A stretch of 63,209 nucleotides of DNA from Pseudomonadota bacterium (GTDB lineage Bacteria > Myxococcota_A > Polyangia > Polyangiales > JAFGIB01). Positions 12,984 through 41,501 of the stretch are shown here, piece by piece. The position numbers and the translations under genes were made by a program. The first letter of the stretch is position 1. Every line of letters starts with the position of its first letter. The stretch is taken from NCBI GenBank assembly GCA_017881185.1, contig JADGRE010000005.1, positions 1-63,209 of the forward strand, read 5' to 3'. The notes under the pieces were generated by a model, which was not told the DNA's origin, did not search any database, and was given only the letters and a program-made list of their open reading frames with translations.

Positions 12984-13079
12984 GGTGCTCATCACTTTTG
13001 CGTCCATCGTTCTATGTTTCGCGCAGCGCCCGCGTGGAGCGTGAGAAATGGGGCGACCCGTCGCCAACTGGACCAGACG

Positions 13080-20172: not shown

Positions 20173-20202
20173 TTGACAAGCCGATTTTTTGCTTTCTATG
20201 AT
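20173..20202 (+). promoter_or_regulatory. Strong sigma70-like promoter upstream of the Glt/Nfs-like cluster
   Basis: TTGACA (20173-20178), 18-nt spacer, TATGAT (20197-20202), in an A/T-richer intergenic region. Confidence 0.6.
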
Positions 20203-20358
20203 GGCGCGCGCTGCCGCTTGTAACTCATCGAATTTGCAGCTCTTTTTAGCAAGTGTTGGAACGAGGCGGCGGTTGACACGCGGTGCTGATACGGGCTGGC
20301 TTCGGGAAGACTGACTTCATCACTCACGAGTCGTCGCGCAGACGATGGAGATACGCGG

Positions 20359-22029
20359 ATGTGCAGAAACCGAACACTCTGGTCGACTGTCTTCGGGGCG
20401 CTCGCATGCATGGCTGTGGCAGGCCATCCGGCGCTCTCTCGTGCGCAGGACATGCAGTTTGGCGTAGAGGAAACGGGAAACGCCGGGCCAGCCACGCCGC
20501 CAGCCGAGGGGCCGCCATCAGAGGCGCTCGGTAACGCACTGCGTTTGTACACGCAGGAGCGCTATCAAGAAGGCGCTGTGCAGTTCCAGCGTGTGGTCGA
20601 AGGCGAAACGCCCGACGCGCCTGCGAACGTGCAGAAGGCGCAGTTCTTTCTCGGCAAGTGTCTCTATCACTTGCACTACTACCAATCCGCGCTCGCGCTG
20701 TTCGACGAGATCTCGGAGCAAGGTCGCAAGCACTTGTTCTTCGATCAGACTTTGCAGTGGCTCGCGCAGCTCGCGTCGCAGCTGCCGGAGCCCGCAGGCA
20801 TCATCGACAAGATCGGTCGCTTCGGTGTCGATCAGCTCGAGCAGTTCAACAACGCCGACAACGCCGACCTGTACAACCAGCTGCTCTATTTGATGGGCCG
20901 TTCGAAGTACAACCAGGGCGAGTTCGACAAGGCGATCGCTCTGTTCGAGAAGGTCGACAAGCGCAACAAGTGGTACATCAAGGCGCGCTTCTTCGAGGGC
21001 ATCTCGTACATCCGCATGCGCAAGGCGCAGCCGGCCGCCACGGCGTTCCGGTCGATCATCAGCGCGATCGACGACGGTGAAGTCGAGGGCGTCGACGACC
21101 CGGAGCGCATGCGCGACCTCGGGTGGATCTCGCTGGCGCGCGTCTACTACACCGCTGCCAACCGCACGATGCCGGACGGCGAGCGCAAGGTCGACGGCGT
21201 GCTGCTCGGCAACGCGGTCGAAGCCTGGACCAAGATCGATCCCGAGAGCGAATACTGGCTCGACTCGCTGTTTGAAGCGTCGTGGGCCTTCTTCCTCGCG
21301 GATCAGTACTCGCGTGCGCTCGGCAACGTGCACACCTTGAACTCGCCGTACTTCAGGGAGTCGTTCTATCCGGAAGCGCTCGTGCTCAAGGCGGTGGTGT
21401 TCTTCTCCAACTGCCAGATGTCGAACGCGACCGCGGTGGTGCAGCAGTTCCACGAGCGTTACGATCCGGTGAAGACGAAGCTCGACGAGATGCTCGAGAA
21501 GTACAAGGACAACGCCCAGTTCTTCGAGTTCTTGAAGAAGATCCGCGCGGGCGAAGCGAACCTGCCCAAGGAAGTGCGCGGTATCATCACCTCGGCGCTG
21601 TCCGATCGTTCGGTGCTCGCGAATCTCGAGTACGTGAGCTTGCTCGAGCAGGAAGAGAAGGCGCTGAGCAAGTCTCCGTCGCAGTTCTCGAGCTCGTCGC
21701 TCGGTGCGCGCATCTTGCAGGACATCCTGGTCGCGAAGTCGTTCGCGGTGGATCAGGCCGGTGACATCGCCAAGGCCCGCTACAACCGTCTGATCGACGA
21801 GATGCAGGACCTCTCCAATCAGATCGACACCGTCGAGATCGAAACCCTGAACTTCCAGCGCGGTCAGCTCTCGCAGGCGTTGCAGGCGCAGCAGACCGCG
21901 GCCGGTGAATCCACCGGTGGTCAGGTCTTCGTGTCATCGGAGCACAACGTGTGGCCGTTCAACGGCGAGTACTGGCGTGACGAGCTCGGCTACTATCGCC
22001 AAGAAGTCACTTACAAGTGTGGAAGGTAA
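20359..22029 (+). CDS. Exported TPR protein, GltC/NfsC-like
   Basis: Signal peptide ending SRA|QDMQFGVEETG; TPR-like helices; located directly upstream of the GltD-like gene. ATG at 20359 with GGAG at 20347-20350. Confidence 0.65.
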   Translation: MCRNRTLWSTVFGALACMAVAGHPALSRAQDMQFGVEETGNAGPATPPAEGPPSEALGNALRLYTQERYQEGAVQFQRVVEGETPDAPANVQKAQFFLGKCLYHLHYYQSALALFDEISEQGRKHLFFDQTLQWLAQLASQLPEPAGIIDKIGRFGVDQLEQFNNADNADLYNQLLYLMGRSKYNQGEFDKAIALFEKVDKRNKWYIKARFFEGISYIRMRKAQPAATAFRSIISAIDDGEVEGVDDPERMRDLGWISLARVYYTAANRTMPDGERKVDGVLLGNAVEAWTKIDPESEYWLDSLFEASWAFFLADQYSRALGNVHTLNSPYFRESFYPEALVLKAVVFFSNCQMSNATAVVQQFHERYDPVKTKLDEMLEKYKDNAQFFEFLKKIRAGEANLPKEVRGIITSALSDRSVLANLEYVSLLEQEEKALSKSPSQFSSSSLGARILQDILVAKSFAVDQAGDIAKARYNRLIDEMQDLSNQIDTVEIETLNFQRGQLSQALQAQQTAAGESTGGQVFVSSEHNVWPFNGEYWRDELGYYRQEVTYKCGR

Positions 22030-22034
22030 CTGAC

Positions 22035-25000
22035 ATGCGACGAACGCCACTTTCGATCTCGCTCGTTACCGCCCGGGTCATCTCGGTCTGGGCCGTCATA
22101 GGTCTGTGCGTGCTCGGTGTTTCGGCCAGCGCGTCAGCTGCACCCAAGAAGGGCGCCAGCAAGCCCAGTAAGGCGGCGAGTAGCAGCAGCTCGCGCTCGT
22201 CTTCGTCGACCGCCGCTCCAGGCGAAGACGAAGGTGACAAGGACGAAGGCAAGAACGTCAACGCTAGCTTGGGCGCGAAAGCGGCCGGCCAGTGGTGCGT
22301 CTCGCCGGATGCGCCCAAGCGCGTCTCCGAGTGTCCGAAGAACACGCCGAAGCAGAACAAGGGCAAGGGCGGTGCGCCCAGCTCCAAGCTGCAAGAGGCC
22401 AAGCGCAAGGTCGAGCAGCCGAAGGGCTTCAAGGCTGGCGGACCGTCGATCGAGCTCGACGTGGCCACGCTGCGCAACAAAGAGAAGACCGAGAAGAAGG
22501 CCAAGGATCTGCTGCTGCGCGAGATCCAGGTCACCAAGCGCCTGATCAAGAACACGCGCATCCAGGACAACCGTCGCCCGGACTTCTTGCTGCGCTTGGC
22601 TGAAGGCTATTTCGAGCTCGTGCAGGTCGCGACCAGCGACGTGCGCAAGCTCGACGAGCCGATCCACCAGGCGTGCCAGGTCAAGAAGGACCGCGGTCAG
22701 TGCACTGCACTGATGAAGAAGCAGAAGGACTCGGAGGGCGATCTCGCGCAGACGCGCGAAGACAACATCACGACGTTGGCGATGTTGGTCAAGGACCACC
22801 CCAACTTCAAGAAGATGGACGAAGTGCTGTTCTCGCTCGGCTTCTCGCTCGACGAGATGAAGCAGTTCGATCGCGCGCGGCAGGTCTACCACCGCCTGAT
22901 CAAGAGCTACCCGCAGAGCGATTACATCCCGAACGCGTACCTGTCGTTCGCGGAGTATTACTTCCAGCAGGGCGACATGAAGGCCGCCCAGCAGTTCTAC
23001 CAGAAGGTCACGGAGATCCCGCCGGAGAAGAACAAGGTCTACGGCTACGCGATCTACAAGCAGGCGTGGTGCTACTACAACCTCGAGGACTTCAAGGCCT
23101 CGTTGCAGAGCTTCATCGAGACCATCCAGTTCGGAACGCAGAATCCAGAAGCGCCGAACGTCGAAAACCTGGTTCGCCAGTCACGCAAAGAGCTCGTGAT
23201 GCCGTACGCGCAGGTCGGCAGCCCGGAGCGCGCGCTCGAGTTCTTCAAGCGCTACGCGAAGGACGACGACCAGGCCTACACGATGTTCGAGAGCCTGGGC
23301 GAGCTGTACTTCGACACCGGCAAGTGGCCTGAAGTCATCGCCGTCTACCACGGCCTGATGGCAGCGCGTTCGAGCGACGACAAGGTCTGCTACTGGCAGA
23401 CGCGCGTCACCAACGCCATCGTCTCGTCCAAGCCAAAGGCGCAGCAGGTCACCGAGGTCGAGCGCATGATCGACCTGTACGACACGTACCAGCAGGGTAC
23501 GCACAAGGAAGACGCCAAGAAGACCTGCAAGCAGGCGGCGGCTTCGGTGCTCATCGACCTCGCCACTGCCTGGCACCGTGAAGCGATCGGTACCGATACC
23601 CAGCCGGGTACCAACGATCGCAACACGATGGAGTTCGCATCCAAGCTCTACCGGCTGCTCCTGAAGGAGTTCCCGGAGATGGAGTCGATGGAGTTCCCCG
23701 ACATCGACAAGCGCGATTGGCCGACGCAGTACAAGGTCGCGTACTTCTACGCCGAGTTGCTCTGGAAGATGGAGAACTGGGGCGAGTGTGGCCCCGCGTT
23801 CGACAAGGTGCTCGAGGTCAACCCGGCAGGCGAGTTCACGGCCGACGCCGCGTACGCTGCCGTGCTTTGCTACAACAAGCAGTACCAAAGCTCGTTCGCC
23901 CAGAACGAGAAGTCGGTGCGTGGCAAGGACGACAAGGGCAAGGGCAAAGGCAAGGGCAAGAAGGACCAGAGCAAGGAAGATAAGAGTGCCGAGTACAAGG
24001 CGAAGGAATTCTCGCCAACGGAACAAGGCATGCTCAACGCCTTCCAGCGCTACATCTGTTTCGTGCCCGACAGCGAAGATCTCCCTCAGATCAAGTATCG
24101 GCGCGCGCGCATCTACTACGAGACGAATCACTTCGAGGAAGCCTCGATCCTCTTCAAGGACATCGCGTTCAACAACAAAGACACCGATCTGGGCGTCTAC
24201 GCGGCGAACTTGTATCTCGACTCGCTCAACGTGCTCGGTACCTACAGCGATCCGGCACGTCCGGCTTGCTACGACGACATGAACGAGAGCATCGAGCCTC
24301 TGTTCGGCCTGTACTGCGGAACACCGGAGAAGCACGAGACGAATGCAGAGCTCTGCAACGTGCTCGAGCAGCTGCGCTGCGACTTGCTGCGTAAGAAGGC
24401 AGAAGCCTTGCAGAGCAACAAGGAGTACAAGGCGTCCGCGACCGTGTACGTGTCGATCTTCCGCAAGTTCCGTGAGTGCGGAAAGCTCGACGAAGTTCTG
24501 TACAACGCCTCGATCAACTTCGAAGCAGCACGCCTCTTGGGCCGCGCGATCAAGGTCCGTAAGGTCTTGATCGACAAGTACCCCGACAGCGAGTGGTCCA
24601 AGCGCGCGCTGTACCTCATCGGCGCCAACTTCCACGCGCTCGCCATCTACGACACTGCGGCTGACTACTACGAGCAGTTCGCGGTGAAGTATCCGGGCGA
24701 AGACGGCAAGGCATGTACGGATGCCGACAAGACCGCGGGCACATGTGCCATCGCACACGAAGCTTTGCAGAACGCCATCTTCTTCCGCCTGGGCCTCGGC
24801 GACGAGGAGAAGGGTGTGGAGGACGGGAAGACGTACGAGAAGAACTACTCGCACAAGTTCCCGCGTGAGACTTCGCGCGTGAAGTACTCGCTGGGCTCGA
24901 TCTACGAGCGCCAGCAAGACTGGAACAAGGTCATCGCGCACTACACATCGTTCATCAACGCGTACAAGAAGACGGCCATGCCGGACGAGTTGATCCAGGC

Positions 25001-25859
25001 CAACGTCACGGTGGGTCGTGCCTACCTGGCGATTGCCGACGCAGCCAACGCCGACAAGCTCAAGAAGATCAAGGACACCGACAAGGACAAGTTCAAGCCT
25101 GCCTTGAGTAACACCAAGGCCGAGCCGTACTTCAAGGCGGCCGCGAAGATCTGGTCAGAGGGCGCGCCCGAAGCCATCGCGAAGAGCGAGCTGCCCGACG
25201 ACCAGAAGGCACGCTCGCTGGCCTACGCCAAGATCGCTGTTGCAGAAGCGCTCTTCAATCTCGCGAACGAGGACTTCGACAAGTTCGCGACCATCAAGTT
25301 CCCTGTCTTCAAGGCGACCGTGGGCGCCAAGGACAGCCTGGACAAGAAGAAGAAGGTCCAGGAACAGTTCCAGAAATGGATGGGCGAAGACTTCGTGAAG
25401 TGGATGGGCGAGAAGGCCAAGGCCCTCGATGCCGCCCAGAAGTCCTACGAGAAGATCTCGGAGCTCAAGGTGCCGCAGTGGGACATCGCCTCGGCGACCC
25501 GCATCGGCGACATGTACCTGTCCTTCGTCGACGACTTCCGTGACGCGCCGGTCCCGCCGACGCTGCAGGGCGACGACGAGCTGGTCGATATCTACTACCA
25601 AGGTCTCGACGAAGCGTCGAAGCCGTGGGTGGAGAAGGCCAAAGGCGCGTACGAGTTCTGCCTCATCACGGCCACCAAGGTGCGTTGGTTCAACGCGTTC
25701 ATGACGCGCTGCGAACAAGAGCTGTTCAAGCTCGATCCGCGCGCCTACCCACGTGCCGCGGAGCTACGCGGCAGCGATACCTATACCTACAGTGCAGAAG
25801 CCAAGCCCGGCATGATCGAGCTCGGCGGTACCGGCGACGAAGACCTGGAGGGCAAGTGA
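22035..25859 (+). CDS. Large exported TPR protein, GltD/AgmU (NfsD)-like
   Basis: Signal peptide (SVWAVIGLCVLGVSASASA), TPR/HAT-like repeats across ~1270 aa; ATG at 22035 preceded by GGAAGG (the 22017 GTG is less likely). Confidence 0.65.
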   Translation: MRRTPLSISLVTARVISVWAVIGLCVLGVSASASAAPKKGASKPSKAASSSSSRSSSSTAAPGEDEGDKDEGKNVNASLGAKAAGQWCVSPDAPKRVSECPKNTPKQNKGKGGAPSSKLQEAKRKVEQPKGFKAGGPSIELDVATLRNKEKTEKKAKDLLLREIQVTKRLIKNTRIQDNRRPDFLLRLAEGYFELVQVATSDVRKLDEPIHQACQVKKDRGQCTALMKKQKDSEGDLAQTREDNITTLAMLVKDHPNFKKMDEVLFSLGFSLDEMKQFDRARQVYHRLIKSYPQSDYIPNAYLSFAEYYFQQGDMKAAQQFYQKVTEIPPEKNKVYGYAIYKQAWCYYNLEDFKASLQSFIETIQFGTQNPEAPNVENLVRQSRKELVMPYAQVGSPERALEFFKRYAKDDDQAYTMFESLGELYFDTGKWPEVIAVYHGLMAARSSDDKVCYWQTRVTNAIVSSKPKAQQVTEVERMIDLYDTYQQGTHKEDAKKTCKQAAASVLIDLATAWHREAIGTDTQPGTNDRNTMEFASKLYRLLLKEFPEMESMEFPDIDKRDWPTQYKVAYFYAELLWKMENWGECGPAFDKVLEVNPAGEFTADAAYAAVLCYNKQYQSSFAQNEKSVRGKDDKGKGKGKGKKDQSKEDKSAEYKAKEFSPTEQGMLNAFQRYICFVPDSEDLPQIKYRRARIYYETNHFEEASILFKDIAFNNKDTDLGVYAANLYLDSLNVLGTYSDPARPACYDDMNESIEPLFGLYCGTPEKHETNAELCNVLEQLRCDLLRKKAEALQSNKEYKASATVYVSIFRKFRECGKLDEVLYNASINFEAARLLGRAIKVRKVLIDKYPDSEWSKRALYLIGANFHALAIYDTAADYYEQFAVKYPGEDGKACTDADKTAGTCAIAHEALQNAIFFRLGLGDEEKGVEDGKTYEKNYSHKFPRETSRVKYSLGSIYERQQDWNKVIAHYTSFINAYKKTAMPDELIQANVTVGRAYLAIADAANADKLKKIKDTDKDKFKPALSNTKAEPYFKAAAKIWSEGAPEAIAKSELPDDQKARSLAYAKIAVAEALFNLANEDFDKFATIKFPVFKATVGAKDSLDKKKKVQEQFQKWMGEDFVKWMGEKAKALDAAQKSYEKISELKVPQWDIASATRIGDMYLSFVDDFRDAPVPPTLQGDDELVDIYYQGLDEASKPWVEKAKGAYEFCLITATKVRWFNAFMTRCEQELFKLDPRAYPRAAELRGSDTYTYSAEAKPGMIELGGTGDEDLEGK

Positions 25860-27439
25860 TGTCCATGCAGCCTCAACATGCACGTGGTCATTCACGTGCT
25901 TCTTTCGTGGTCTTGGTCGCGGGCCTGCTGCTCGCTGCGTGTGGCGGTTTGCTCCTCGCCGCCTGTGGCGGCGGGGGTGGCGGCGCGAGCGGTGGTGGTT
26001 CGAGCGCTGGTACGGCGACCGTCGGCGGCAAGGTCGTAAAGACCGCCGGCGGTCAGTCCGTGACCCAGGAGGCCCACAACCGTTGGACCGAAGGTCTGAA
26101 GATCTTCAAGATGTACGAGAAGAGCGGCTGGAACAGCGCGCACTGCGGCGAGGCAGCTGACAAATTCGAAGGCGCAGCGGGGGCCCAGTCCAAGTTTGCC
26201 GAAGCGCTGTACATGGCGGGCTTGTCACACGATCGCTGCGGCGAGCGTGACAAGGCGCAGAAATTCTACGGTGACGCGATCCGTGCGAACCCCAAGTTCT
26301 GCAAGGCGCGCGTAGCCATTGCGCTCGAACATCTACGCACGGGTGGCGCCAGCCAGGCCGAGCGCGAGTTCGCGCAGTCCGTGCAGGACGACCCGCAGTG
26401 TACCGAGGGCTACGTGAACCTCGCCATCCTCCAGCGCAAGCGCGGCATCGAGGGCAATAAGGAAGCGCTCTCGAACCTGCGCCGTGCGCTCGCCATCGAC
26501 GCGCAGTACCTGCCTGCGTTCAACGAGATGGCGCTGCTCTACTTGAGCGAGGCCGCAGACAACAAGAAGAAGCTCGATCTCGCGGAGGTCGTGTGCAGCC
26601 AGGCGCAGAAGATCAACGGTAACTACGCCGCGGTCTACAACACCTGGGGTCTCATCGATCTGCAGCGCGACAAGATCATCGACGCTGCCGCCAAGTTCCA
26701 GAAAGCCATGGAGCTCGACGACAAGATGTTCGAGGCCTACATGAACTTCGCGCGCATCACGATCGGCTTCCGCGGCTATCAAGACGCGAAGACCGCGTAC
26801 GAGAAGGCGCTCGCACTGCAGCCGAAGAACTTCGAGGCGCAGATCGGCATCGGTGTGGCGCAGCGTGGCTTGGCGGACAACACCGGCGCGCAGGCGTCGT
26901 ACGAGAAGGCCATGAAGCTCGAGCCGAGCCGCGCCGAGCCGTACTACAACATGGGCTTGCTCTACCAAGACTTCATGAACGGCACTGCCGACGAGATGAA
27001 GAAGGCGCGCTCGTACTACCAGGACTTCCTGAGCAAGGCGGGCTCGGACAAGCGCTACTCGACCGCGATCGACGACGTGACCCGCAAGTGCAAGGTCGAG
27101 GGCGGAAAGAAGCGCGGCAGCGGTCGCAACAAGTGCATCTCCGGCCGCTTGCAGAACATCGATCTCTACCTCGACACCATGAAACAGATGGCCGAGATGG
27201 AGAAGCTGCAGAAGGTGCAGGAGAAGCAGGCTGCGGATCTCGAGGCCCAGGAGAAGGCCGAGAAGGCTGCAGCGGACAAGGCTGCTGCGGAGAAACCACC
27301 AGCAGCGGCACCTGCTCCTGATGCCAACAAGCCCGCGGGTGGTGCAGCCCCGGCTGCCGGCGCGGACAAGGGTGCGGACAAGGGTGCGGACAAGGGTGCC
27401 GACAAGGGCGCAGCCCCAGCCAAGGGAAAAGGTAAGTGA
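25859..27439 (+). CDS. TPR lipoprotein, GltE/AglT (NfsE)-like
   Basis: Lipobox 'LLLAACGGLLLAACGG'; TPR repeats; start ATG overlaps previous TGA (TGATG). C-terminal (GADK)4 repeat. Confidence 0.65.
   Translation: MSMQPQHARGHSRASFVVLVAGLLLAACGGLLLAACGGGGGGASGGGSSAGTATVGGKVVKTAGGQSVTQEAHNRWTEGLKIFKMYEKSGWNSAHCGEAADKFEGAAGAQSKFAEALYMAGLSHDRCGERDKAQKFYGDAIRANPKFCKARVAIALEHLRTGGASQAEREFAQSVQDDPQCTEGYVNLAILQRKRGIEGNKEALSNLRRALAIDAQYLPAFNEMALLYLSEAADNKKKLDLAEVVCSQAQKINGNYAAVYNTWGLIDLQRDKIIDAAAKFQKAMELDDKMFEAYMNFARITIGFRGYQDAKTAYEKALALQPKNFEAQIGIGVAQRGLADNTGAQASYEKAMKLEPSRAEPYYNMGLLYQDFMNGTADEMKKARSYYQDFLSKAGSDKRYSTAIDDVTRKCKVEGGKKRGSGRNKCISGRLQNIDLYLDTMKQMAEMEKLQKVQEKQAADLEAQEKAEKAAADKAAAEKPPAAAPAPDANKPAGGAAPAAGADKGADKGADKGADKGAAPAKGKGK
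27359..27406 (+). repeat. Tandem 12-bp coding repeat (GADK x4)
   Basis: GGCGCGGACAAG GGTGCGGACAAG GGTGCGGACAAG GGTGCCGACAAG. Confidence 0.95.
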
Positions 27440-27616
27440 AGGTCTCCCGACTGGGAACCTTTACGGCGCCTCGTTGTCTGACTAGGGTGTGTAGGATCCG
27501 TACATAAAAATCGGAAATTCGAGGAAAAGCTCACCTCGAGCGGTTGCGTGATGTGGGTACGCGTAGATAGGCTGCCCACGGTAGTTTCGAAGAGAATGGT
27601 TACTGGAGAAGAAGTC

Positions 27617-27904
27617 ATGACAAAGCTCACGGTGCTCACGCTGTTAGTGCTTGGAATGATTGGGGTTGCACCGGCACTGGTCGGCCCGTTGGCCAGCCAT
27701 GCGTTGGCTGAGGACGACAAGGGCGGCGCTGCGGCTGGCGGTAACGCCACGTCGTACGACTTCGAAGACGACTTGGTGCAGGGCGACCTGGTGCGGCCCG
27801 ACGGCGAGAACCTGATGGTGCGTCGGCGCGGTGCGCGCGAGTCGCTCATCAAGATCCGGGAGCACTTCGTTCCGGAGCTGCTGAAGTCAGTCGAGAATCT
27901 GTAG
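27617..27904 (+). CDS. Small exported protein (95 aa) in the Glt/Nfs-like cluster (positionally GltF-like)
   Basis: ATG at 27617 (MTKLTVLTLLVLGMIGVAPALVGPLASHALAEDD...) with GGAGAAG upstream; conserved-looking 'FEDDLVQGDLVRPDGE...RRRGARESLIKIREHFVPELLKSVENL'. Confidence 0.65.
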   Translation: MTKLTVLTLLVLGMIGVAPALVGPLASHALAEDDKGGAAAGGNATSYDFEDDLVQGDLVRPDGENLMVRRRGARESLIKIREHFVPELLKSVENL

Positions 27905-28027
27905 TCGCGCTTTTTTCTTGAACTGACACGCGTGAATCCGGGGTAGTTGTCTGCCCCGCGAGGACACTGCTCACTTCTCTGTCAGCGCATTCGCGTTGTA
28001 GGCCCGTTGCACGTTCTGGAGGCTGTG

Positions 28028-30109: not shown

Positions 30110-30154
30110 TAACCGACACGGTCGAGTCCGTAACTGGACTTGAGTTTTGAACAT

Positions 30155-30195
30155 CGGGCGGATCCTGCAGCTGGGGGGTCCGCTCGATTTGTTTT
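30155..30195 (+). terminator. Intrinsic terminator-like hairpin after the GltG-like gene
   Basis: CGGGCGGATCC (30155-30165) pairs with GGGTCCGCTCG (30176-30186): 11 bp with 2 G-U, 10-nt loop, then ATTTGTTTT. Confidence 0.65.
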
Positions 30196-30289
30196 GGCAG
30201 TCCACGATGGTTGGTCGGTATGGTCCCCGACCAGGCGTCGCACGGGGGCTCGGGCAGGAAATTCAGGCTGCAACTTCGCTAATTTGCGA

Positions 30290-30319
30290 TTGAGCTTGGC
30301 CCCCCGTTTCTCGTAACAT
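30290..30319 (+). promoter_or_regulatory. Weak candidate promoter upstream of the 30352 TPR gene
   Basis: TTGAGC (30290-30295), 18-nt spacer, TAACAT (30314-30319). Confidence 0.3.
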
Positions 30320-30351
30320 CCCAGGGCCACTGTTCCTAAGGAGCCATTCCC

Positions 30352-31245
30352 ATGAAGCGGTTCAAATTGCTGGTGTCGGGTCTGGTCACGGTCTTCGTGT
30401 GCATGGCTGGTGATTGCTCGCGCGCCCGCGTCGAGTCGGTCAACAAGATGAACGAGGGCGTGACGGCTGCAGTGCAGAAGCGCTACGTCGATGCGACCAA
30501 GCTGCTCGAGAGCGCCGCGGCCATCGACCCCGAGAACGACCAGGTGTTCTGGAACATGGCGCTGGTCCACATGGAGCTGCGCAAGTACGACCGCGCGCGC
30601 GAGGATCTGCAGAAGGCGATCGCGCTGAACGCGAAGTCGGGTGGCTATCAGGAGAAGCTCGGTACGATTCTGATCGAGCTGAAAGACTGGCCGGCGGCCA
30701 AGACGGCGTTCGAGAAGGCCATCGAGCTCGAGCCCGATCTCTTCAAGGCGCACTACAAGCTTGCGCAGGTCAACGAGCAGCTCGATGACCAGCAGAGCGC
30801 GCTCAAGAACTACACGGCGGCGATCGACAAGGGTCCGCGTTTCCTCGAAGCGTACAACGCGCTCGGCCGCCTCTACGCCGACCTCGGCTACATGGACAAT
30901 TCCGTGCAGGTGCTGCAGGAGGCGCTGAAGGTTGCGTTGCCGGGCACCGAGGAAGAGGCGCAAGCGCATCACTTGCTCGGCACTGTGTATCAGCAGCAGA
31001 AGAAGTACGCGGATGCAGTGCGCGAGTTCAAGGCCGCGCTCGATGTGGTTCCAGGCATGCGCGACGCGCTCTTTTCGCTCGGCTGGACGTACCAGCTGCA
31101 GGGCAACAAAGACGAAGCGAAGCGCTACCTGCAGAAGTTCGTGGATGTCGCAGGGGCGGAAGCGCCTGCGCATTATGTGAAGGCGGCACGCGACAAGATT
31201 GCTGAGATGGCGGAAGGCTTTGCTACTTCCGCAGCGAACGAATAG
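30352..31245 (+). CDS. TPR lipoprotein/periplasmic TPR protein
   Basis: N-terminal hydrophobic segment with Cys (VTVFVCMAGDCS), then 6-7 canonical TPRs ('DNSVQVLQEALKV', 'YADAVREFKAALDVVPGMRDALFSLGWTYQLQGNKDEAKRYL'). Confidence 0.8.
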   Translation: MKRFKLLVSGLVTVFVCMAGDCSRARVESVNKMNEGVTAAVQKRYVDATKLLESAAAIDPENDQVFWNMALVHMELRKYDRAREDLQKAIALNAKSGGYQEKLGTILIELKDWPAAKTAFEKAIELEPDLFKAHYKLAQVNEQLDDQQSALKNYTAAIDKGPRFLEAYNALGRLYADLGYMDNSVQVLQEALKVALPGTEEEAQAHHLLGTVYQQQKKYADAVREFKAALDVVPGMRDALFSLGWTYQLQGNKDEAKRYLQKFVDVAGAEAPAHYVKAARDKIAEMAEGFATSAANE

Positions 31246-31361
31246 CGCGTCGCACGAACACAGGGCACGCATCGCGTGCGCTGGTTTTTGCCGCGAGGGG
31301 TGCAGCGGGCAACTCGGCACGCACCCACAGGCTCTCATTAGGTGGATCGCAGGAGGCTTCG

Positions 31362-34300
31362 GTGTCGGATAACGACGTTTCCGTTTCCAGTCAGGCCGAG
31401 GAGGAAGTTCAAGAAGCGGGGGCCGAGCAAGCGAGCGCGAGCGGGGAGGCCAGCCCCGCGCCACGCGAGCTGACTGACGCCGATCGAGCCAAGCTCGCCG
31501 AGCTGTCGGAGGCCGTCGAGAAATTCACGGCGGCCAAGCGCTGGTCGGACGTGATCAAGGCGATCCTGCAGAAGGCCGACATCGTCGTCGACGTCGCCGA
31601 AAAGGCCGCGTTGCTCAGCGAAGCCGGGCGCATGTACATCGAGCGTTCGTCGAACCAGGCCGAAGCCATCAAGTGCTTCCAGCGCGTGCTGGACGCTGAC
31701 CGCGGCAACGTCGAAGCCATCGGGCATCTCAAGGAGATGTACGAGAAGCGCCGTGACTGGGAGCGTTTGGTCGATGTGATGCGGGCCGAATGCGAGCTCC
31801 TCGACGCAAGCGACCAGCCGATGCGCCGGCTCGAGATCGCCCAGATGGCGAACGAGAAGCTGCGCAAGCCGAACGTGTGCATCGATCTGTGGCGTGAGGT
31901 GCTCGCGGTGGACGGCGACAATGCCGAGGCGCTCACTGCGCTTTCCGGGTTGTACGAGCGTGCGCGCGAGTGGGCGCCCCTGGCCGAGGTGCTCGATCGC
32001 CAGAGTCAGCTCGCCAAAGACAACGCCGAGGTGATCGCGCTCTTGCAGAAGCTCGGCAACGTGTACGCCGAGAAGCTGCAGGACGACAACGGTGCGTTGC
32101 AGGCCTACCGGCACTTGTTGGAGCTCGACCCGAACGATCGCCGCGCTCAGGAGCAGCTGAAGAAGCGCTGGGTGGCGACCGGCGCGTGGGACGAGCTCGA
32201 AGAGTTCTATGCTTCGACCGACAAGATCGACGAGCTGATTCGTACGCTCGAGCGTGCGGCAGACGCGACCACCAGCGAGCTCGCCGAGCGCATCTCGCTC
32301 TTGTTCCGCATCGCGCGCATCTGGCAGGACAAGAAGGGCGCCGCGGATCGCGCAGCTCGCTCGTACGAGAAGGTGCTGGCGCTCGACGCGAACAACCAGG
32401 AAGCGGCCGAAGCGCTGTCGCCCATCTACGAGCAGGCGGGCGACGCGAAGAAGCTTGCCAGCGTGTACGAGGTGCGTCTCAAGCACCTGCAGGAGCCAGA
32501 ACCGCGCGTGGTGCTGCTGCGCGAGACCGGCTTGCTCTACGAAGAGAAGCTACGCAACCCGCAGCTGGCGTTCGATCGCTTCCTCGAGGCCTTCGTGCTC
32601 GACCCGAAGCAGAGCGTGCTGCGTGAGGATCTCGACCGTCTTGCCGGTAAGGTGAACGGCTGGGAGAAGATCTTCGCGGCGTATGGCACTGCCATCGAAG
32701 CGGCGACGCATCCCGACGACGCCAACGACCTGCGCCTCTTCTACGGCAACGCCCTGGCCGGTCAGGGCAAGACCAAGGAAGCGATAGCGCAGTTCCGTGC
32801 GGTCTACGAGGATCGCGGCGACGACCAGACGGCCATCGCGGCGCTCGAGAAGCTGTACCGTGAGACGAGCGACTTCCAGGCACTGCTCGGCGTGTTGTCG
32901 CGCCGCTCGGAGCTGGAGAGCGACGTCGAGGTGCGCAAGCAACTCGCGTACGCCATCGCGCAGCTCTGGCACGAGCACCTCGACAACGCTGACCAAGCTA
33001 TCGAGGCGTACAAGAACATCCCCGTCGAGTTCGGCGAGGGCGAGACCGAGGCGTATCGCGCCCTCGACGCGCTGTACGAGCAGCAAGAGCGCTGGGACGA
33101 CCTCGCGCAGACCCTCGAGCACCGCATCGACATGGGCCCGGCAGGGCACGAAGAGCTGGCTGCGCTGAAGTTCAGGCTGGCTGGCGTGCTCCACCAGCAT
33201 CTCAAGGGCAAAGCGCGCGCGGTGGAGCTGTACCGCGAAGTGCTCACCTTGATGCCGGAGCACGAGGGCGCGCTCGCGGCGCTCGAGAGCTTGCTGTCGG
33301 ACGAGGAGCTCGGTGGGCAGGCTGCTGCGATCGCGATCGAACTCTACGAGTCTCACGCCAACTTCGCCAAGCTCGTGCCTGCTCTAGAGGTGCTGCTGAA
33401 GTTCACCACGGAACAGGAACGGCGCATCGATCTCATCACCAAGATCGGCGAAGTGCGCGCTGATCAGCTGCACGACGGCGCGGGTGCGTTCGCGGCGTAC
33501 GCGATAGCGTTCGAGGAAGCGCCCGAGAACCCGGGCATCGTGGCTCGCTTGCTCGGCCTGGCGAAGGAACAAAAGCGCCTGGGCGACATGGTGCGCCTGC
33601 TGGAAGCGCGCGCGCAGAAGTTGGACGACGTGGCGCTCATGCGCCAGCTGCTCATCATGGCAGCGGAGCTGCATGACAACGAGCTGGGCGATGTGGACGC
33701 TGCCGTTGCAGCTTACATGAAGGCGCTGGAGCGCGACGAGGCCGACGAGGAAATCCTGGCGGCCCTTGAGGCGCTGTATCGGCGCACCGAGCGCTGGCGC
33801 GACCTGCTCGACGTGTTGCGTCGGCGTGTGACCATCAGCTCGGATCCGGCCGCGCAAGAGCAGTTGCTCGCGCAAATGGCGTTCATTCACGACGAGATGC
33901 TGACGGAGCCTGAGGCGGCCATCCGCATCTATGCGGAGATCCTCACGCTCGACCCAACGAGCCAGGCCGCCCTCAGTGCGCTCGACGGGCTCTACGAGCG
34001 CAAGGGTATGTGGAGCGATCTCGCCGACAATGTCGGCCGTCAGCTGTCGCTGGCCGAAGACGACCAGCAGCAGATCGCGTTGATGTTGAAGCTCGGCCTG
34101 CTGCGCGAGACGCGCATGAATGCGCCCGAGGCCGCGATCGAGATCTACCGCGAGGTGCTGGAACGCGACCCGGCGAACGCGCCGGCGATCGAAGCGCTCG
34201 AGCGCTTGCTGGCGCTGCCGGAATACCAGCTGCAGATCGCGGAGATTCTGGAGCCGCTGTACCGTGACGCCAACCAGTATCAGAAGCTCGTCGGCATCCA

Positions 34301-37300
34301 CGACATTCAGGTGAAGAACAGCAGCTCCGCGGATCAGCGCGTGGAGCTCTTGCATCGGATGGCCGAGCTCCACGAGGTCGCGCTCGCGGACCTCGGCAGC
34401 GCGTTCAAGACCTTTGCTCGCGCGCTCGGGGAAGACCCGGGTAACTTGGCGACACGCGATCAACTCGACCGCATCGCGGCGAGCGCGGGTTCGTTCCAGG
34501 CGCTCGCCGAGGTGTACGAGGGCCTGGTGCAAGGCACGACCGACCCGGCGACTCTCGTGTCGCTCCACACCAAGGCTGCACAGATCCGCGAAGAACACGT
34601 CGCGGATACAACGGCCGCGATCGAGCACTACAAGCGTGTGCTCGAGATCGACGAAACGAACCTCGATGCGGCTACGGCGCTCGAGCGTTTGTATCAGGTT
34701 GCAGAGCGCTACGAAGAGCTCGCGCAGATCTTCCTGACGAAGGCCGCACTGCTCTCGGATCCGGAGGAACAGAAGGGCTATCTGTTCCGTGCGGGCGCTA
34801 TCTACGAAGAGGTGCTGGAGCAACCGCAGGCCGCGATCGAAGTGTACGGTCGCGTGCTGCAGATCGACGCCGAGGACGTCGGCGCGCTCGATAAGTTGAT
34901 CCGCCTGCATCTGCAGCTCAAGCAGTGGGAGAAGCTGCTCGCAGTGTACGGACAGAAGGCGGATGTCGTCGCCGACGCCGACGAGAAGAAGGGCTTGTAC
35001 ATACAGATCGGCGCCGTGTACGAGCGCGAGCTGGGTCAGCCGGAGAAGGCGATCGAGACCTACCAGCGCGTGCTGGAGCTCGACCCGGACGACGTGCAAG
35101 CGCTGTCGCGGCTCGATGCGCTGTACCAGACGGCGGGCAAGGCCGACGAGCTCTTGTCGGTGCTCGAGCGCGAAGCAGAGCTCGCGTCGGACCCGGCGCA
35201 AGCCATCGATCACCGCTATCGCATCGGCGAGCTGTACGAGCAGAAGCTGAACGACGCGTTCCGCGCGGTCGAAGTGTATCGCGAGATCCTGGACGTCATC
35301 CCGGATCACGCCCCCACTCTGGTGGCGCTGGAGCGCATGATCGACGCAGGTCGCGAGCCCATGGCCGCGGCGGCCGTGCTGGAGCCGATCTACCGGGCCG
35401 CGGTGGATTCTGCGCGCCTGGCGCGCGTGCTCGAAGTGCTGATCACGCACGAGGAAGATCCGATCCGCAAGGTCGAGCTCTTGCATCAAGTTGCGGAGAT
35501 CTACGAAGTGCACCTCGAACAGCCGCGTCAGGCGTTCGATGCTTTTGCACGCGCGTTCCCGATCGACTGCCAGAACGAGAGCACGATTGCAGCGCTGGAT
35601 CGCTTGGCCGAGCGCCTGGCGTGCTGGAACGACCTGGCTGCGCTGTACGACCGCGAGATTGCGCGGCTCCGCGAGGAGACACCGGACGCGGCAATCGCGC
35701 TGGCACTGCGTTTAGCGCAGGTCTTCGAGGTGCAGCTCGGTGACGTGCATTCTGCCGTCGCGCGTTACCGCATCGTGTTCGACACGGATCCGGCGCACGT
35801 GCAGGCCATCGAGGCCCTCGATCGCCTGTACGAGGGCACAGAGCAGTGGGCGCAGCTGGCCGAGATCTTGGAACGCAAGGTCGAGGTGGCGAGCAGTCCG
35901 GACGAGATTCTGGGCATTCACTACCGCCTCGGTCAGCTGCAACAGAACCGTCTGGGCAGTGTGGCGCGCGCAGTGGAGCGTTACCGCGAGATTCTTGCCG
36001 CAGCACCCGAGCACGAAGAGGCGCTGCGTGCGCTCGAGGGCTTGTTCGCGCAGGGCATCCTGACGGGGCCCATCGGGGAGATCCTCGAGCCGCTGTATCG
36101 CATGCAGGAGGCTTGGGACCGTCTGATCGGCGTGCACGAGGCCGAGCTGCGGCTTCAAGCCGATGTGCAGGAGCGTGTGTTGGCGATGCACCGCATCGCG
36201 GAGATCGCCGAAGAGCGTGCTGGCGACCAGATCAGTGCCTTCACCTGGATGCAGCGCGCGTTGATGGAGGACCCGGGCAACGAACAGTCGAGCTCGGAGG
36301 TGGAGCGGCTTGCACAGCTCGTCGACGGTTGGGCGATTCTCGCGAGCACCTACGCCGGCATTGCGGCTTCGACTGGGTCGCGCGTGTCGACCGGGATCCG
36401 CGTCGCGACGGGCAAGCGTCTGGCGCGCGTGTACGAAGACGAGCTCGGTGACCTTGCACGTGCCGAGGAGAGCTACCGCTACATCGTGGCGCTCGATGGG
36501 CGTGACGAAGACGTGCTGGTGGCGCTCGATCGCATCTACACCGACAACGGCGCCGGCGAGGCGCTCGCCGAGGTACTGAAGAAACGTGTTGCGGCGACGA
36601 GCGATGATCGCGAGAAGGTCGAGCTCTCGCACCGCCTGGGCAACGTGCTGTGGAACGAGTGCCGCCGCACGGACGAAGCGATCGCGGTGTACCGGCACTT
36701 GCTCGACAAGCTCGATGCGCAGCACGAGGACACGCTGCACGCACTGCAGAATGTCTACACGTGCATCCAGAGCTGGCCGCAGCTCTTCGAGATGTACGAG
36801 AAGGAGCTCGATGTCGTGGTCGGGGACTCGGCGCAGGCGGAGATTCTCGGGCGCATGGCGATGCTCGCGGCCACGCGGCTGGGCAACTACGAGCGCGCTG
36901 TGGAGCTCTTGCGCAAGGTGCTCGATCTCCTCGGGGAAGATCCCGAGGCGCTCAACACTTTGGGCAACATCTACGCGCTCCAGGAGAACTGGACGGATCT
37001 CGTCGACGTGCTCGAGCGCGAAGTCGCGGTGAGCGACGACGATCAGATGCGCATGAAGATCTACGGCGATCTCGGCCGCATCTGGTACGAGAAGCTGCAT
37101 CGTGATCGCAACGCGCTCGAGAGCTGGGAGCGCGTGCTCGATCTCGACTCGAGCAACACCGAGGCGCTGTTCGCGATTGCCTCGATTCACCGCGCCGCGG
37201 CTTCGTACAACGATCTCGTGGACACGCTGCATCGCGTGATCGACGTGGGCACGGCGACGCTGGCCGACACGGAGGTCGAGAACGTCTACATGGAGCTTGG

Positions 37301-40300
37301 TGCGCTGTACAACCAGCAGCTCAAGCAGCCGTCGGACGCGGTCGACTCCTACAACAAGGCGTTGGAAGTGAACATGCGCAACTTCGGCGCGCTCGACGCG
37401 CTCGAAGCCATCCACTCTGGGCAAGACCAGTGGGAGGAGTGCATCGAGGCCAAGCAGCGCCGCGTGCAGGCGCTGGATGACGCGCGCGAGAAGATCGCGG
37501 TGCTGCTCGACGTCGCGCGCATGTGGGACGAGAAGCTGAGCGAGCCTGACAAGGCAGTCGATCCGTTCAATCAGATTCTCGAGGTCGATCCGCTGCACAA
37601 CCTGGCGTTCGAACGCCTGGAAGCGCTTCACCGCGAGCACGCGCGCTTCGACGACTTGATCTCGTTGTACTTGTCGCGCGTGGAAGCGGCGTCCGAGCCG
37701 GCGATGCGTATCCAGCTGCTGCGCAGCGTGGCGCGCGTGTACGAGAAGGATCTGGACGACAAGGCGCAGGCGTTCGACGCCTTGCTCATCGCCTGGACGC
37801 AGGACTTCACCGACGAAGACAGCGCACGCGAAGTGGAGCGGCTGGCGGGGCTCACGCAGCGCTGGAACGAGCTGCTCACCACCGCCAATCAGTCGCTCAC
37901 CGAGGTGGGCGACAGTGACTTGCAGGTCAAGAACGCGATCTGTCTCAAGTGCGCGCGTTGGTACGGCAAGGAAGGCCACCCGGAGTACGCCATCCCGTAC
38001 CTGCAGCAGGTGCTGGCGAACGATCCCGTCAATCGCCCGGCGATGCGTCAGATGGCCGAGCTGTATCGGCAGACGCAGCAGTGGCAGATTTACTCGCAGG
38101 TGCTCGGCAAGCTCGTCGAGATGACGGAAGACCCGGCAGAGAAGGCCGAGGCGTACGTCAACATGGGTGAGCTGCAAGAGAACTTCAACCTGCCAGAGCA
38201 AGCGATCAAGCACTACCGCGAGGCACTCGAAGCGGTGCCGTCGCAGCTGGCTGCGATCAAGGCGCTCGACCGCATGTTCCGTGCGCGCGAGCAGTGGTTC
38301 GACCTGGTCGACATCCTGCGTCGCAAGGTGGACGCGGTCACCGACCCGGAGCAGGTGTTGGCGGCCAAGCTGGAGCTCGCCGAAGCCTACGAAGATCGCG
38401 TCGCCGACAAGAGCAAGGCCATCGAGCACTACCGTCGCGTGCTCGAAGACGACGTGCGCAATCTGCAAGCCCTCAAGGGCCTGGAGCGGCTCTACGCGCA
38501 GCAAGAGCTGTGGCAGGACCTGCTCGACGTGCTCGAGAAGCAGCTCGACATCGTGGTCAACGACCGCGATCAGGTGCAGCTGCTCATGCGCATCGCTGGC
38601 ATGTGGGAGGAAGAGTTCCTCAAGCCGGAGAAGGCTGCCGAGCGTTTGGAGCGCGCGGTCGACATCGACCCCACGCAAACCGAAGCGCTCACCAGCCTGG
38701 CGCGCATCTATCGTCAGCAGCGCAAGTGGGCCGAGCTGGTGACCGCCCTCGAGCGTCACATCGATGCGACGCCCGACAAGAGCGACAAGGCGGCGCTCTA
38801 CCAGCAGATCGGTGCGGTCTACCGCGACGAGCTGAACGACACCGACCGCGCGGTCGAGAATTTCCTGAACGTGACCTCGCTCGACCCCAAGAGCGCGGCG
38901 GCGCTGCGGGCGTTGTCGCAGCTCTACGAGAAGCGCGAAGAGCACAGTAGTGCGCTCGACGCCATGGAGAAGCTGGCCGAGGTCAGCGACGACGCCGCGG
39001 AGCGCGTGGCGTTGTACTTCCGCATGGGCAAGCTCCTCGACAAGGAGCTCGGGGATCGCGTCAGCGCGCTGGATCACTTTCAGAAGGCCATCGAGATCGA
39101 CGACAAGCATCTGCCGTCGCTCGACGCCACGCGCACGATCCACGTCGAGGAGAGCGACTTCAGCTCGGCCGCTCGAACGCTCGTGCGCATGTGCGAGGTC
39201 GAGGAAAACCCGCGGAGAAGTGCCGAGCTCCGGGTGGAGCTCGGTCGCATCTACGAGGACAAGCTCGAGGAGCACGAGCTTGCGATCGAGAGCTTCCAGG
39301 AAGCCTACAAGCTCGATCCCGACAATGCGGCAGCAGCGCTACCGCTGGTGGCGGAGTACACCGGGTCGGCGCGCTGGAAGGAAGCCGAGCCGCTGTTGCA
39401 GATGCTCGTGCGCACCTCGGGCAATCGCGAGGTCGAAGAGCAACACCGGCTGTGGTTCCTCTACGGTCAGTGTGCTGAGCAACTGGGCGACGACGAGACG
39501 GCGGTTAAGGCCTACGGCAAGGCCTTCGAGCTCGACGCGCACGACCTGCGCGCTTTGAACGGGCTTGCAGCTGCGCACTACCGCCGCAAGGAGTGGGACA
39601 ACGCGTTCAAGTTCTACCAGATGGTGCTCGTGCACCATCGCGACGAGCTCGGCTCGTCGGAGACGACCGAGACCTTCTATCGCTTGGGTGTCATCAAGCG
39701 CGAGCAGGGCGAGCGCAAGAAGGCGCTCAACATGTTCGACAAGGCGCTCGAGGAAGACGCGATCCACCGGCCCACGTTGGAAGCCTTGGTCTCGCTCTAC
39801 GCCGAGGACAAGGACTTCGAGCAGGTCATTCATTACAAGAAGCGCGTGCTCGACTGCTCGGACGATGCCGCCGAGCGCTTCCAGCTGATCGAAGAGATCG
39901 GTGATCTCTGGAACGACCAGCTCAAGAATCCGGCGAAGGCGATCGAGTCGTACGTGGAAGCTGCGGAGCTGCAGCCAAAGAACCACAAGATCCTGCACAA
40001 GTTGCTCGTGCTGTATCAGTCGACGGGTCAGTGGGAGCCGGCGATCGCCATCATCGAGCGCGTCTCGGAGCTCGATCCGCGCAACGAAGCCAAGTCGAAG
40101 TACGCGTACACCGTCGGTGTGATTCTGCGCGACGAGCTCAAAGACGCCGAGCGTGCGCTCGAGCGCTTCAACATGGCACTCGACCTCGATCCCGAGGGCA
40201 TGCTGAAGTCGTTCGAAGCCATCAACAAGCTGCTCACCCAGCAGAAAGACTGGAAGCAGCTGGAACGCGCGTTCCGCAAGATGTTGCACCGCGTGTCCGG

Positions 40301-41501
40301 CAAGGGCGACACGGCGCTGGAGTTCAACCTCTGGCACAACTTGGGCGTCATCTACCGCGACCGTCAGAAGAACGTGGAAGCGTCGGCCGAGGCGTTTGCC
40401 ATGGCCTCGCGCTTGCAGCCCGACAACATGCAGGAGCACCAGATCCTGGCCGAGGTGTACGGGGTGCTGCCCAACCGCATCAACGATGCGGTGGCGGAGC
40501 AGCAGGTCTTGCTGAAGAACGACCCGTTCCGCGTGGACTCGTACCGTGCGCTCTACAAGCTCTACTTCGACGCGCGGCAGTACGACAAAGCTTGGTGTGT
40601 GGCTGCGACGCTGGCGTTCTTGAAGAAGGCCGACGCGGAGCAACGACAGTTCCACGAGCAGTATCGTCCGGAAGGACCGATTCGCCCGCGTTCGCGCTTG
40701 AACAACGAGCGCTGGGTGAAAGACCTTCTGCACCCCGACGAGGACTTCCTCGCGGGCAAGGTGTTCGAGGCCATCACGCCTGCCGTGCTGCGCATCCGCG
40801 CGCAGCCCGACAAGAAGTGGCAGCTGAACAAGAAGGATCTGATCCCCGACGTGATGAACACGACGGTGTCGTTCGCGCGCACCTTCGGCTTCGTCACGCA
40901 GGTGCTGAGCTTGCCTCTGGTGCCGCGCTTGTTCGTGTGCCCCGATCGCCAGGGTGGCTTGGCCTTCGCGACCACGCTGCCGCCTGCTTCGGTGTGCGGT
41001 AGCGCGTTGCTCAGCGGTCAGAATCCGCTCGACGTGATCTTCATCGTCGCCAAGCACCTGAGCTACTACCGCGGCGAGCACTTCATCCGGACCATGTTCC
41101 AGACGAAGGACGAGCTGAAGTTGGTGCTGGTCGCTGCGATGCACGTCGCGGGCGTGGAGATCAGCGACCCGAACGTGGTGGAGTGGGCGCGTCAGATTCG
41201 CGCGCAGATGCAACCGGCAGATGTGGAGCTGCTCAACAGCATCACCAAGCGCTTCGTCGATGCGGGTGCCCGCACCGACGTGAAGAAATGGATGCAATCG
41301 GTGGAGCTCACGGCGTGCCGTGCGGGCTTCCTCCTGTGCAACGATCTCGACATCGCTGCACGCATGGTGCAAGCCGAGCCACCGATGGGTGCGGTCGACC
41401 TGACACCCAAAGAGAAGGTGCAGGAGCTGGTGCTGTTCAGCGTGTCGGAGCCGTACTTCCGGTTGCGCGAGGCGCTCGGTATCCAGATCCAAGTTGGCTA
41501 G
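31362..41501 (+). CDS. Giant cytoplasmic TPR protein (3379 aa), GltI/AgmK-like
   Basis: Single uninterrupted 10.1-kb ORF; no signal peptide; ~72-aa supra-repeats 'A.E.YR.VLE.DP..AL.AL..LY.....W..L..VL'; non-TPR C-terminal ~290 aa. Confidence 0.75.
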   Translation: MSDNDVSVSSQAEEEVQEAGAEQASASGEASPAPRELTDADRAKLAELSEAVEKFTAAKRWSDVIKAILQKADIVVDVAEKAALLSEAGRMYIERSSNQAEAIKCFQRVLDADRGNVEAIGHLKEMYEKRRDWERLVDVMRAECELLDASDQPMRRLEIAQMANEKLRKPNVCIDLWREVLAVDGDNAEALTALSGLYERAREWAPLAEVLDRQSQLAKDNAEVIALLQKLGNVYAEKLQDDNGALQAYRHLLELDPNDRRAQEQLKKRWVATGAWDELEEFYASTDKIDELIRTLERAADATTSELAERISLLFRIARIWQDKKGAADRAARSYEKVLALDANNQEAAEALSPIYEQAGDAKKLASVYEVRLKHLQEPEPRVVLLRETGLLYEEKLRNPQLAFDRFLEAFVLDPKQSVLREDLDRLAGKVNGWEKIFAAYGTAIEAATHPDDANDLRLFYGNALAGQGKTKEAIAQFRAVYEDRGDDQTAIAALEKLYRETSDFQALLGVLSRRSELESDVEVRKQLAYAIAQLWHEHLDNADQAIEAYKNIPVEFGEGETEAYRALDALYEQQERWDDLAQTLEHRIDMGPAGHEELAALKFRLAGVLHQHLKGKARAVELYREVLTLMPEHEGALAALESLLSDEELGGQAAAIAIELYESHANFAKLVPALEVLLKFTTEQERRIDLITKIGEVRADQLHDGAGAFAAYAIAFEEAPENPGIVARLLGLAKEQKRLGDMVRLLEARAQKLDDVALMRQLLIMAAELHDNELGDVDAAVAAYMKALERDEADEEILAALEALYRRTERWRDLLDVLRRRVTISSDPAAQEQLLAQMAFIHDEMLTEPEAAIRIYAEILTLDPTSQAALSALDGLYERKGMWSDLADNVGRQLSLAEDDQQQIALMLKLGLLRETRMNAPEAAIEIYREVLERDPANAPAIEALERLLALPEYQLQIAEILEPLYRDANQYQKLVGIHDIQVKNSSSADQRVELLHRMAELHEVALADLGSAFKTFARALGEDPGNLATRDQLDRIAASAGSFQALAEVYEGLVQGTTDPATLVSLHTKAAQIREEHVADTTAAIEHYKRVLEIDETNLDAATALERLYQVAERYEELAQIFLTKAALLSDPEEQKGYLFRAGAIYEEVLEQPQAAIEVYGRVLQIDAEDVGALDKLIRLHLQLKQWEKLLAVYGQKADVVADADEKKGLYIQIGAVYERELGQPEKAIETYQRVLELDPDDVQALSRLDALYQTAGKADELLSVLEREAELASDPAQAIDHRYRIGELYEQKLNDAFRAVEVYREILDVIPDHAPTLVALERMIDAGREPMAAAAVLEPIYRAAVDSARLARVLEVLITHEEDPIRKVELLHQVAEIYEVHLEQPRQAFDAFARAFPIDCQNESTIAALDRLAERLACWNDLAALYDREIARLREETPDAAIALALRLAQVFEVQLGDVHSAVARYRIVFDTDPAHVQAIEALDRLYEGTEQWAQLAEILERKVEVASSPDEILGIHYRLGQLQQNRLGSVARAVERYREILAAAPEHEEALRALEGLFAQGILTGPIGEILEPLYRMQEAWDRLIGVHEAELRLQADVQERVLAMHRIAEIAEERAGDQISAFTWMQRALMEDPGNEQSSSEVERLAQLVDGWAILASTYAGIAASTGSRVSTGIRVATGKRLARVYEDELGDLARAEESYRYIVALDGRDEDVLVALDRIYTDNGAGEALAEVLKKRVAATSDDREKVELSHRLGNVLWNECRRTDEAIAVYRHLLDKLDAQHEDTLHALQNVYTCIQSWPQLFEMYEKELDVVVGDSAQAEILGRMAMLAATRLGNYERAVELLRKVLDLLGEDPEALNTLGNIYALQENWTDLVDVLEREVAVSDDDQMRMKIYGDLGRIWYEKLHRDRNALESWERVLDLDSSNTEALFAIASIHRAAASYNDLVDTLHRVIDVGTATLADTEVENVYMELGALYNQQLKQPSDAVDSYNKALEVNMRNFGALDALEAIHSGQDQWEECIEAKQRRVQALDDAREKIAVLLDVARMWDEKLSEPDKAVDPFNQILEVDPLHNLAFERLEALHREHARFDDLISLYLSRVEAASEPAMRIQLLRSVARVYEKDLDDKAQAFDALLIAWTQDFTDEDSAREVERLAGLTQRWNELLTTANQSLTEVGDSDLQVKNAICLKCARWYGKEGHPEYAIPYLQQVLANDPVNRPAMRQMAELYRQTQQWQIYSQVLGKLVEMTEDPAEKAEAYVNMGELQENFNLPEQAIKHYREALEAVPSQLAAIKALDRMFRAREQWFDLVDILRRKVDAVTDPEQVLAAKLELAEAYEDRVADKSKAIEHYRRVLEDDVRNLQALKGLERLYAQQELWQDLLDVLEKQLDIVVNDRDQVQLLMRIAGMWEEEFLKPEKAAERLERAVDIDPTQTEALTSLARIYRQQRKWAELVTALERHIDATPDKSDKAALYQQIGAVYRDELNDTDRAVENFLNVTSLDPKSAAALRALSQLYEKREEHSSALDAMEKLAEVSDDAAERVALYFRMGKLLDKELGDRVSALDHFQKAIEIDDKHLPSLDATRTIHVEESDFSSAARTLVRMCEVEENPRRSAELRVELGRIYEDKLEEHELAIESFQEAYKLDPDNAAAALPLVAEYTGSARWKEAEPLLQMLVRTSGNREVEEQHRLWFLYGQCAEQLGDDETAVKAYGKAFELDAHDLRALNGLAAAHYRRKEWDNAFKFYQMVLVHHRDELGSSETTETFYRLGVIKREQGERKKALNMFDKALEEDAIHRPTLEALVSLYAEDKDFEQVIHYKKRVLDCSDDAAERFQLIEEIGDLWNDQLKNPAKAIESYVEAAELQPKNHKILHKLLVLYQSTGQWEPAIAIIERVSELDPRNEAKSKYAYTVGVILRDELKDAERALERFNMALDLDPEGMLKSFEAINKLLTQQKDWKQLERAFRKMLHRVSGKGDTALEFNLWHNLGVIYRDRQKNVEASAEAFAMASRLQPDNMQEHQILAEVYGVLPNRINDAVAEQQVLLKNDPFRVDSYRALYKLYFDARQYDKAWCVAATLAFLKKADAEQRQFHEQYRPEGPIRPRSRLNNERWVKDLLHPDEDFLAGKVFEAITPAVLRIRAQPDKKWQLNKKDLIPDVMNTTVSFARTFGFVTQVLSLPLVPRLFVCPDRQGGLAFATTLPPASVCGSALLSGQNPLDVIFIVAKHLSYYRGEHFIRTMFQTKDELKLVLVAAMHVAGVEISDPNVVEWARQIRAQMQPADVELLNSITKRFVDAGARTDVKKWMQSVELTACRAGFLLCNDLDIAARMVQAEPPMGAVDLTPKEKVQELVLFSVSEPYFRLREALGIQIQVG

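Follow-up and report, generated by a model that had tools for sequence, protein, structure and literature searches.

The Agl-Glt machine of Myxococcus xanthus (GltA-K plus AglRQS) is described by an established model (PMC3169522, PMC3858216, PMC13104615), on which the mechanism considered below is based. Luciano et al. (PMC3169522) reported the Nfs proteins (NfsA-H) as the closest homologues of Glt, and the Nfs version of these parts works with AglRQS to move the glycan of the spore coat (PMC3858216). M. xanthus has several paralogous clusters, and G4 and G5 mutants move normally (PMC3169522). In 2011, homologues of G1 and G2 were described as grouped together in Anaeromyxobacter, and agmV (MXAN_4864/65), which lies between gltH and gltI in Myxococcaceae, was dismissed as "probably not actual genes."

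Here we describe a locus that, judged by sequence, encodes a motor-coupled, envelope-spanning machine of the Glt/Nfs family, a predicted cousin of the Myxococcus gliding machine. The kind of machine is already known, and this work adds only modestly to it, with the clade and its layout, a small protein that we call TprL, and coding evidence for the agmV region.

Gene content of the cluster and its genome

The window is the whole stretch of DNA analyzed (63,209 nucleotides), and the cluster lies in it on contig C217 of a 6.0-Mb draft genome (94% complete, 410 contigs). Gene calling used a simple script based on codon usage. Profile searches and direct alignment gave the order gltC-gltD-gltE-gltF-gltG-tprL-gltI, all on the + strand. 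These are the seven same-strand genes of an earlier note on this DNA; all of the ORFs were confirmed, and their descriptions were correct. The features are as follows.

12090..13007, - strand: second OMP_myx_plus-like β-barrel of a pair (TIGR04565, 46 bits, E 4e-12, under the cut-off of 60)
13080..14099, - strand: OMP_myx_plus β-barrel, GltA/GltB/NfsA/NfsB family (TIGR04565, 87 bits, cut-off 60)
20359..22029, + strand: GltC homologue, exported TPR protein, 556 aa (NF033756, 287 bits, E 4e-85, equivalog cut-off 450)
22035..25859, + strand: GltD homologue, exported TPR protein, about 1274 aa from the start in the earlier note (direct alignment)
25859..27439, start approximate, + strand: GltE homologue, TPR lipoprotein with an LLAAC lipobox (NF033758, 110 bits, E 9e-32)
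27617..27904, + strand: GltF/CglF homologue, exported, 95 aa (NF033764, 67 bits, E 1.5e-18, cut-off 90)
28028..30109, + strand: GltG homologue, FHA domain, transmembrane segment and AgmX/PglI tail (NF033760, 452 bits, E 3e-135, cut-off 650)
30352..31245, + strand: TprL, small conserved TPR protein, lipoprotein-like, 297 aa, without a named Glt counterpart
31362..41501, + strand: GltI homologue, cytosolic TPR giant with a conserved non-TPR C-terminal domain, 3379 aa

The GltC homologue is 27% identical to Archangium GltC and 20% identical to NfsC, and the GltF homologue is 37% identical to Archangium GltF. The GltD ORF opens at 22017; its product aligned with Archangium GltD over 1206 positions (24% identity, E 4e-71) and with NfsD at E 3e-49, and GltD homologues were present in 57 of 57 genomes. 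The GltG homologue starts with GTG, at a position that aligns with the start of Myxococcus GltG (MAVPLTLKVFKGD), and its myxo_SS_tail and FHA profiles each scored above their own cut-offs. When the cluster was searched with NCBIfam profiles, no GltD or GltI model matched, and every full-length equivalog score was under its cut-off, as is expected outside Myxococcaceae.

The giant was compared directly with true GltI. Its C-terminal 381 aa aligned with the C terminus of the 4.1k-residue GltI from four Myxococcaceae genomes (24-26% identity, E 4e-20 to 9e-16), which bears out its earlier description as GltI-like. The same region also matched a paralogue resembling GltI in Myxococcaceae, a second TPR protein (about 1670 aa) that has this C-terminal domain and is encoded away from the glt cluster (L239:8341-13356, L243:5454-10421, and L249:5997-11018). 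Beyond the flanking TPR repeats, no Pfam or solved-structure relative of the domain was found, and single-sequence folding gave no usable model (pLDDT 36.5). The idea that the domain is a degenerate metallopeptidase was abandoned because evidence for it was lacking.

Based on these results, homologues of GltC, GltD, GltE, and GltG are clustered, as is the mark of the Glt/Nfs superfamily. The earlier assignment to this family was upheld for every gene open to testing, including the products encoded at 22035, 25859, 28028, and 31362, for which a lack of Glt/Nfs matches had been named as the refuting outcome. The NCBIfam E-values, the gene order kept in dozens of genomes, and the third-codon-position substitutions in the gene at 30352 together show that the seven ORFs are not due to chance.

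A divergent barrel pair, overlooked in the earlier note, lies 6-8 kb upstream and belongs with the seven-gene cluster. True GltA/GltB, which adjoin gltC in Archangium (L238), and NfsA/NfsB (L235) are members of the same OMP_myx_plus family. The pair was kept in 12 of the 40 loci with enough upstream DNA, and sister genomes, a Sandaracinus-like genome (G017), and others have it about as far from the cluster. No GltH/CglE barrel was found in the window cluster, where TprL stands between gltG and gltI; within this genome a CglE-like protein was seen only in a second cluster, on contig C120.

The earlier note had proposed a search of the genome for AglRQS, and two AglRQS-like triads were found on contig C11, unlinked to the window. 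Each consists of one MotA/TolQ-like and two ExbD/TolR-like genes, and the two match different Archangium triads. They lie back to back and are divergently transcribed (L021:5688-11151), as are their counterparts in G017 and in the sister genome. An Anaeromyxobacter-like genome has a motor triad preceded by a small protein whose tail is GltF-like (SFIPELIKTVDE; L256:2346-2537, - strand). Contig C208 encodes MglA (81% identity), preceded by the end of MglB, and the window itself encodes a small GTPase resembling MglA at 56685-57413 (+ strand; 51% identical to Myxococcus MglA), 15 kb downstream of gltI. The search for GltJ returned a short protein on C356 with a Zn ribbon and an AgmX tail (82 bits, cut-off 450).

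The second Glt-like cluster is divergent (L022, C120:10000-29000) and contains genes for a barrel, gltC, gltD, gltE, a gene in the GltF position, gltG, a 221-aa protein, and a CglE/GltH-like barrel. Solo GltG-like genes are present on C323 and C25. The one on C323 (L024:1183-2604) has an AgmX tail and no FHA domain, and it is near the window GltG (phmmer E 2e-111).

Layout in Myxococcota, TprL, and the agmV region

Regions around GltD/GltG from relatives and other families, plus 80 named GTDB loci, were compared. The order gltC-D-E-F-G-tprL-giant was found throughout, including in Anaeromyxobacter-like genomes (L111 and L112), a Bradymonadales genome (L150), and all order relatives with loci read, some of them with small genomes (about 4 Mb); the sister contig of the window (L194) carries the label Sandaracinaceae bacterium Chersky_700. 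Of the 70 loci with upstream DNA long enough to judge, 59 had gltC immediately before gltD. The other 11 include every named locus from Myxococcus, Pyxidicoccus, and Archangium, and the remainder of these 11 resemble the split Glt layout of Myxococcaceae. The adjacency of gltC and gltD, which had been likened to Nfs, is thus real, but it is a layout common in the phylum. In Myxococcota, the machine usually has the compact gltC-D-E-F-G-tprL-gltI run, which is widespread, and the split layout of Myxococcus is exceptional.

Outside Myxococcaceae, most loci have tprL between gltG and the gene for the giant. It was scored in 42 of the 54 loci with enough downstream DNA, a count from which two further carriers (L161 and L163) escaped owing to the distance rule of the script. 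Since TPR genes match one another, orthology of TprL was assigned by position and score together. Substitutions in its gene numbered 110 at the third codon position vs 28 and 11 at the others. The product had been described as a TPR lipoprotein; other families do have a canonical lipoprotein here, whereas in the window clade the lipobox (AGDC/GGNC) departs from the usual pattern. TprL is a candidate component of the machine that is worth testing.

The Myxococcaceae references were Archangium lansinium, A. violaceum, Myxococcus dinghuensis, and Pyxidicoccus caerfyrddinensis, a set that excludes the M. xanthus DK1622 locus. In Archangium, Myxococcus, and Pyxidicoccus, the glt cluster reads gltD-E-F-G-H-(553-647-aa ORF)-gltI, with gltJ downstream where the DNA covers it. 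These genera also have a separate GltA/GltB-family pair with gltC, an nfsA-H cluster, and an mglBA-adjacent cluster, and Pyxidicoccus has one further Glt-like cluster. We take the mglBA-adjacent cluster to be G4 of Luciano et al.; the mglA locus number would tie it to MXAN_1922. A. lansinium carries a second, solo GltG copy that scores above the GltG equivalog cut-off (L236:5479-7317, 823 bits joined).

The agmV region is an intact ORF of 553-647 aa (L198:18212-19873, L166:17991-19934, L179:18190-19890, and L173:18165-19871), in which substitutions fall mainly at the third codon position (e.g. 52/42/167). The intact frame and this substitution pattern suggest that in Myxococcaceae the region is a true protein-coding gene. 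TprL was also considered as the counterpart of agmV, and this was ruled out: the Myxococcaceae ORF at that place is 553-647 aa long, with repeats and without an evident signal sequence, and the TprL profile did not match it.

Placement relative to Glt and Nfs

A maximum likelihood tree was built from concatenated GltC, GltD, GltE, and GltG under a mixture model. The window type formed its own clade (support 100/99, and 100/100 when a second tree was rooted with the mglBA-linked clusters). Its members come from Polyangia, from Anaeromyxobacter-like genomes, and from Bradymonadales, and the Glt and the Nfs of Myxococcaceae both fall outside it. The C120 cluster of the same genome grouped with the mglBA-linked Myxococcus cluster, on long branches. 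In the mglBA-rooted tree, Nfs branched before the split of Glt and the window type (support 97/98), and a clade of Glt plus Nfs was weakly rejected (p-AU 0.02, with the caveat of long branches). Because this rejection is weak and Luciano et al. report Nfs as closest to Glt, we regard the rooting as tentative.

The question raised earlier, whether the locus branches with Glt, with Nfs, or with neither, was thus answered in favor of neither. By the sequences compared, the window type is neither Glt nor Nfs proper, whichever root is taken. The suggestion that the locus is intermediate between the two was not sustained, since it belongs to a separate, fully supported lineage and the gltC-gltD-gltI layout is common in the phylum. 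The joining of gltC to gltD looks like the older arrangement rather than an intermediate one.

Function and comparison with known systems

We consider that the locus probably specifies that part of an Agl-Glt-type machine which spans the envelope, in a lineage apart from Myxococcaceae Glt and Nfs, and that its most likely use is gliding by focal-adhesion transport. By analogy with the Agl-Glt model, a proton-driven AglRQS-like motor (encoded on C11) would push on inner-membrane GltG, and the cytosolic giant GltI would link the motor to the cytoskeleton. The periplasmic tail of GltG, together with GltC/D/E, GltF, and TprL, would pass force to outer-membrane barrels of the GltA/B family, which in turn would move surface adhesins or polymer.

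Gliding is suggested first by GltI, as in M. xanthus it is the motility system that has this protein. It is suggested also by a one-contig genome of the same order (G017; 10,327,335 bp), taken as Sandaracinus, in which the cluster is the only close Glt-like one and other GltD matches are distant. Sandaracinus amylolyticus is described as gliding and has a 10.33-Mb genome (PMC5010890). GltI alone is no proof of gliding, since a GltI-like protein with the same C terminus is encoded outside the Myxococcaceae glt cluster. Against a gliding machine stand the absence of gltH/CglE from the cluster, the shortness and low score of the GltJ-like protein, the unlinked motor genes, and profile scores under the equivalog cut-offs.

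The main rival, which we regard as unlikely, is a surface-polymer transport machine that, like Nfs, moves glycan over the cell or spore surface and has no part in motility. The use of the same parts by Nfs, the presence of gltC within the same gene run as in Nfs (L235, L241, and L246), and the lack of GltH, full GltJ, and perhaps GltK are consistent with it, but Nfs has no GltI and the window cluster branches apart from Nfs. The layout is moreover present in all order relatives read, including the genomes of about 4 Mb, where a spore-coat role is less likely. Rather doubtful is the proposal that the window clade is a functionally distinct third Agl-Glt type, in which TprL, standing in for GltH, would connect the chain of periplasmic TPR proteins with the outer membrane, and the cargo would be neither gliding adhesin nor spore-coat glycan.

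Orthology to Myxococcus G4 or G5, with a shared function, would accord with the several paralogous clusters of M. xanthus and the normal movement of the G4/G5 mutants, but is quite improbable: the mglBA-linked cluster, taken as G4, is far from the window in the tree, where the C120 cluster, on long branches, takes the place beside it, and in Archangium it scores lower (GltC, 97 vs 287 bits for the window; GltG, 172 vs 452). That the locus is an assembly chimera or a chance array of unrelated TPR genes is scarcely credible, since, for all the contigs of the draft and the weak matches of TPR proteins to each other, conserved synteny refutes a chimera, with specific profile matches and an identical order in independent assemblies, including a one-contig 10.3-Mb genome (L116). 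For the gliding machine that we favor, compact clusters in described gliders (Sandaracinus by inference) form a set for asking which parts gliding needs outside Myxococcus.

Like the M. xanthus Agl-Glt system, the window cluster has homologues of GltC, GltD, GltE, GltF, GltG, and GltI and nearby GltA/B-family barrels, and other contigs of its genome encode AglRQS-like motors, MglA, and a GltJ-like protein. It differs in its separate clade, in the joining of gltC to gltD, and in a cluster without gltH and gltJ; Myxococcaceae Glt has gltH and the agmV region where the window has TprL, and a GltI of about 4100 aa vs 3379. With Nfs the window shares the run of gltC-like to gltG-like genes, whereas it has GltI, divergent barrels 6-8 kb away, and no H gene, and is more distant from Nfs in GltC, GltD, and the tree. 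TprL is unnamed in the 2011 gene set of Luciano et al. The Anaeromyxobacter-like loci have the same gene order, belong to the same clade, and show species-level differences only.
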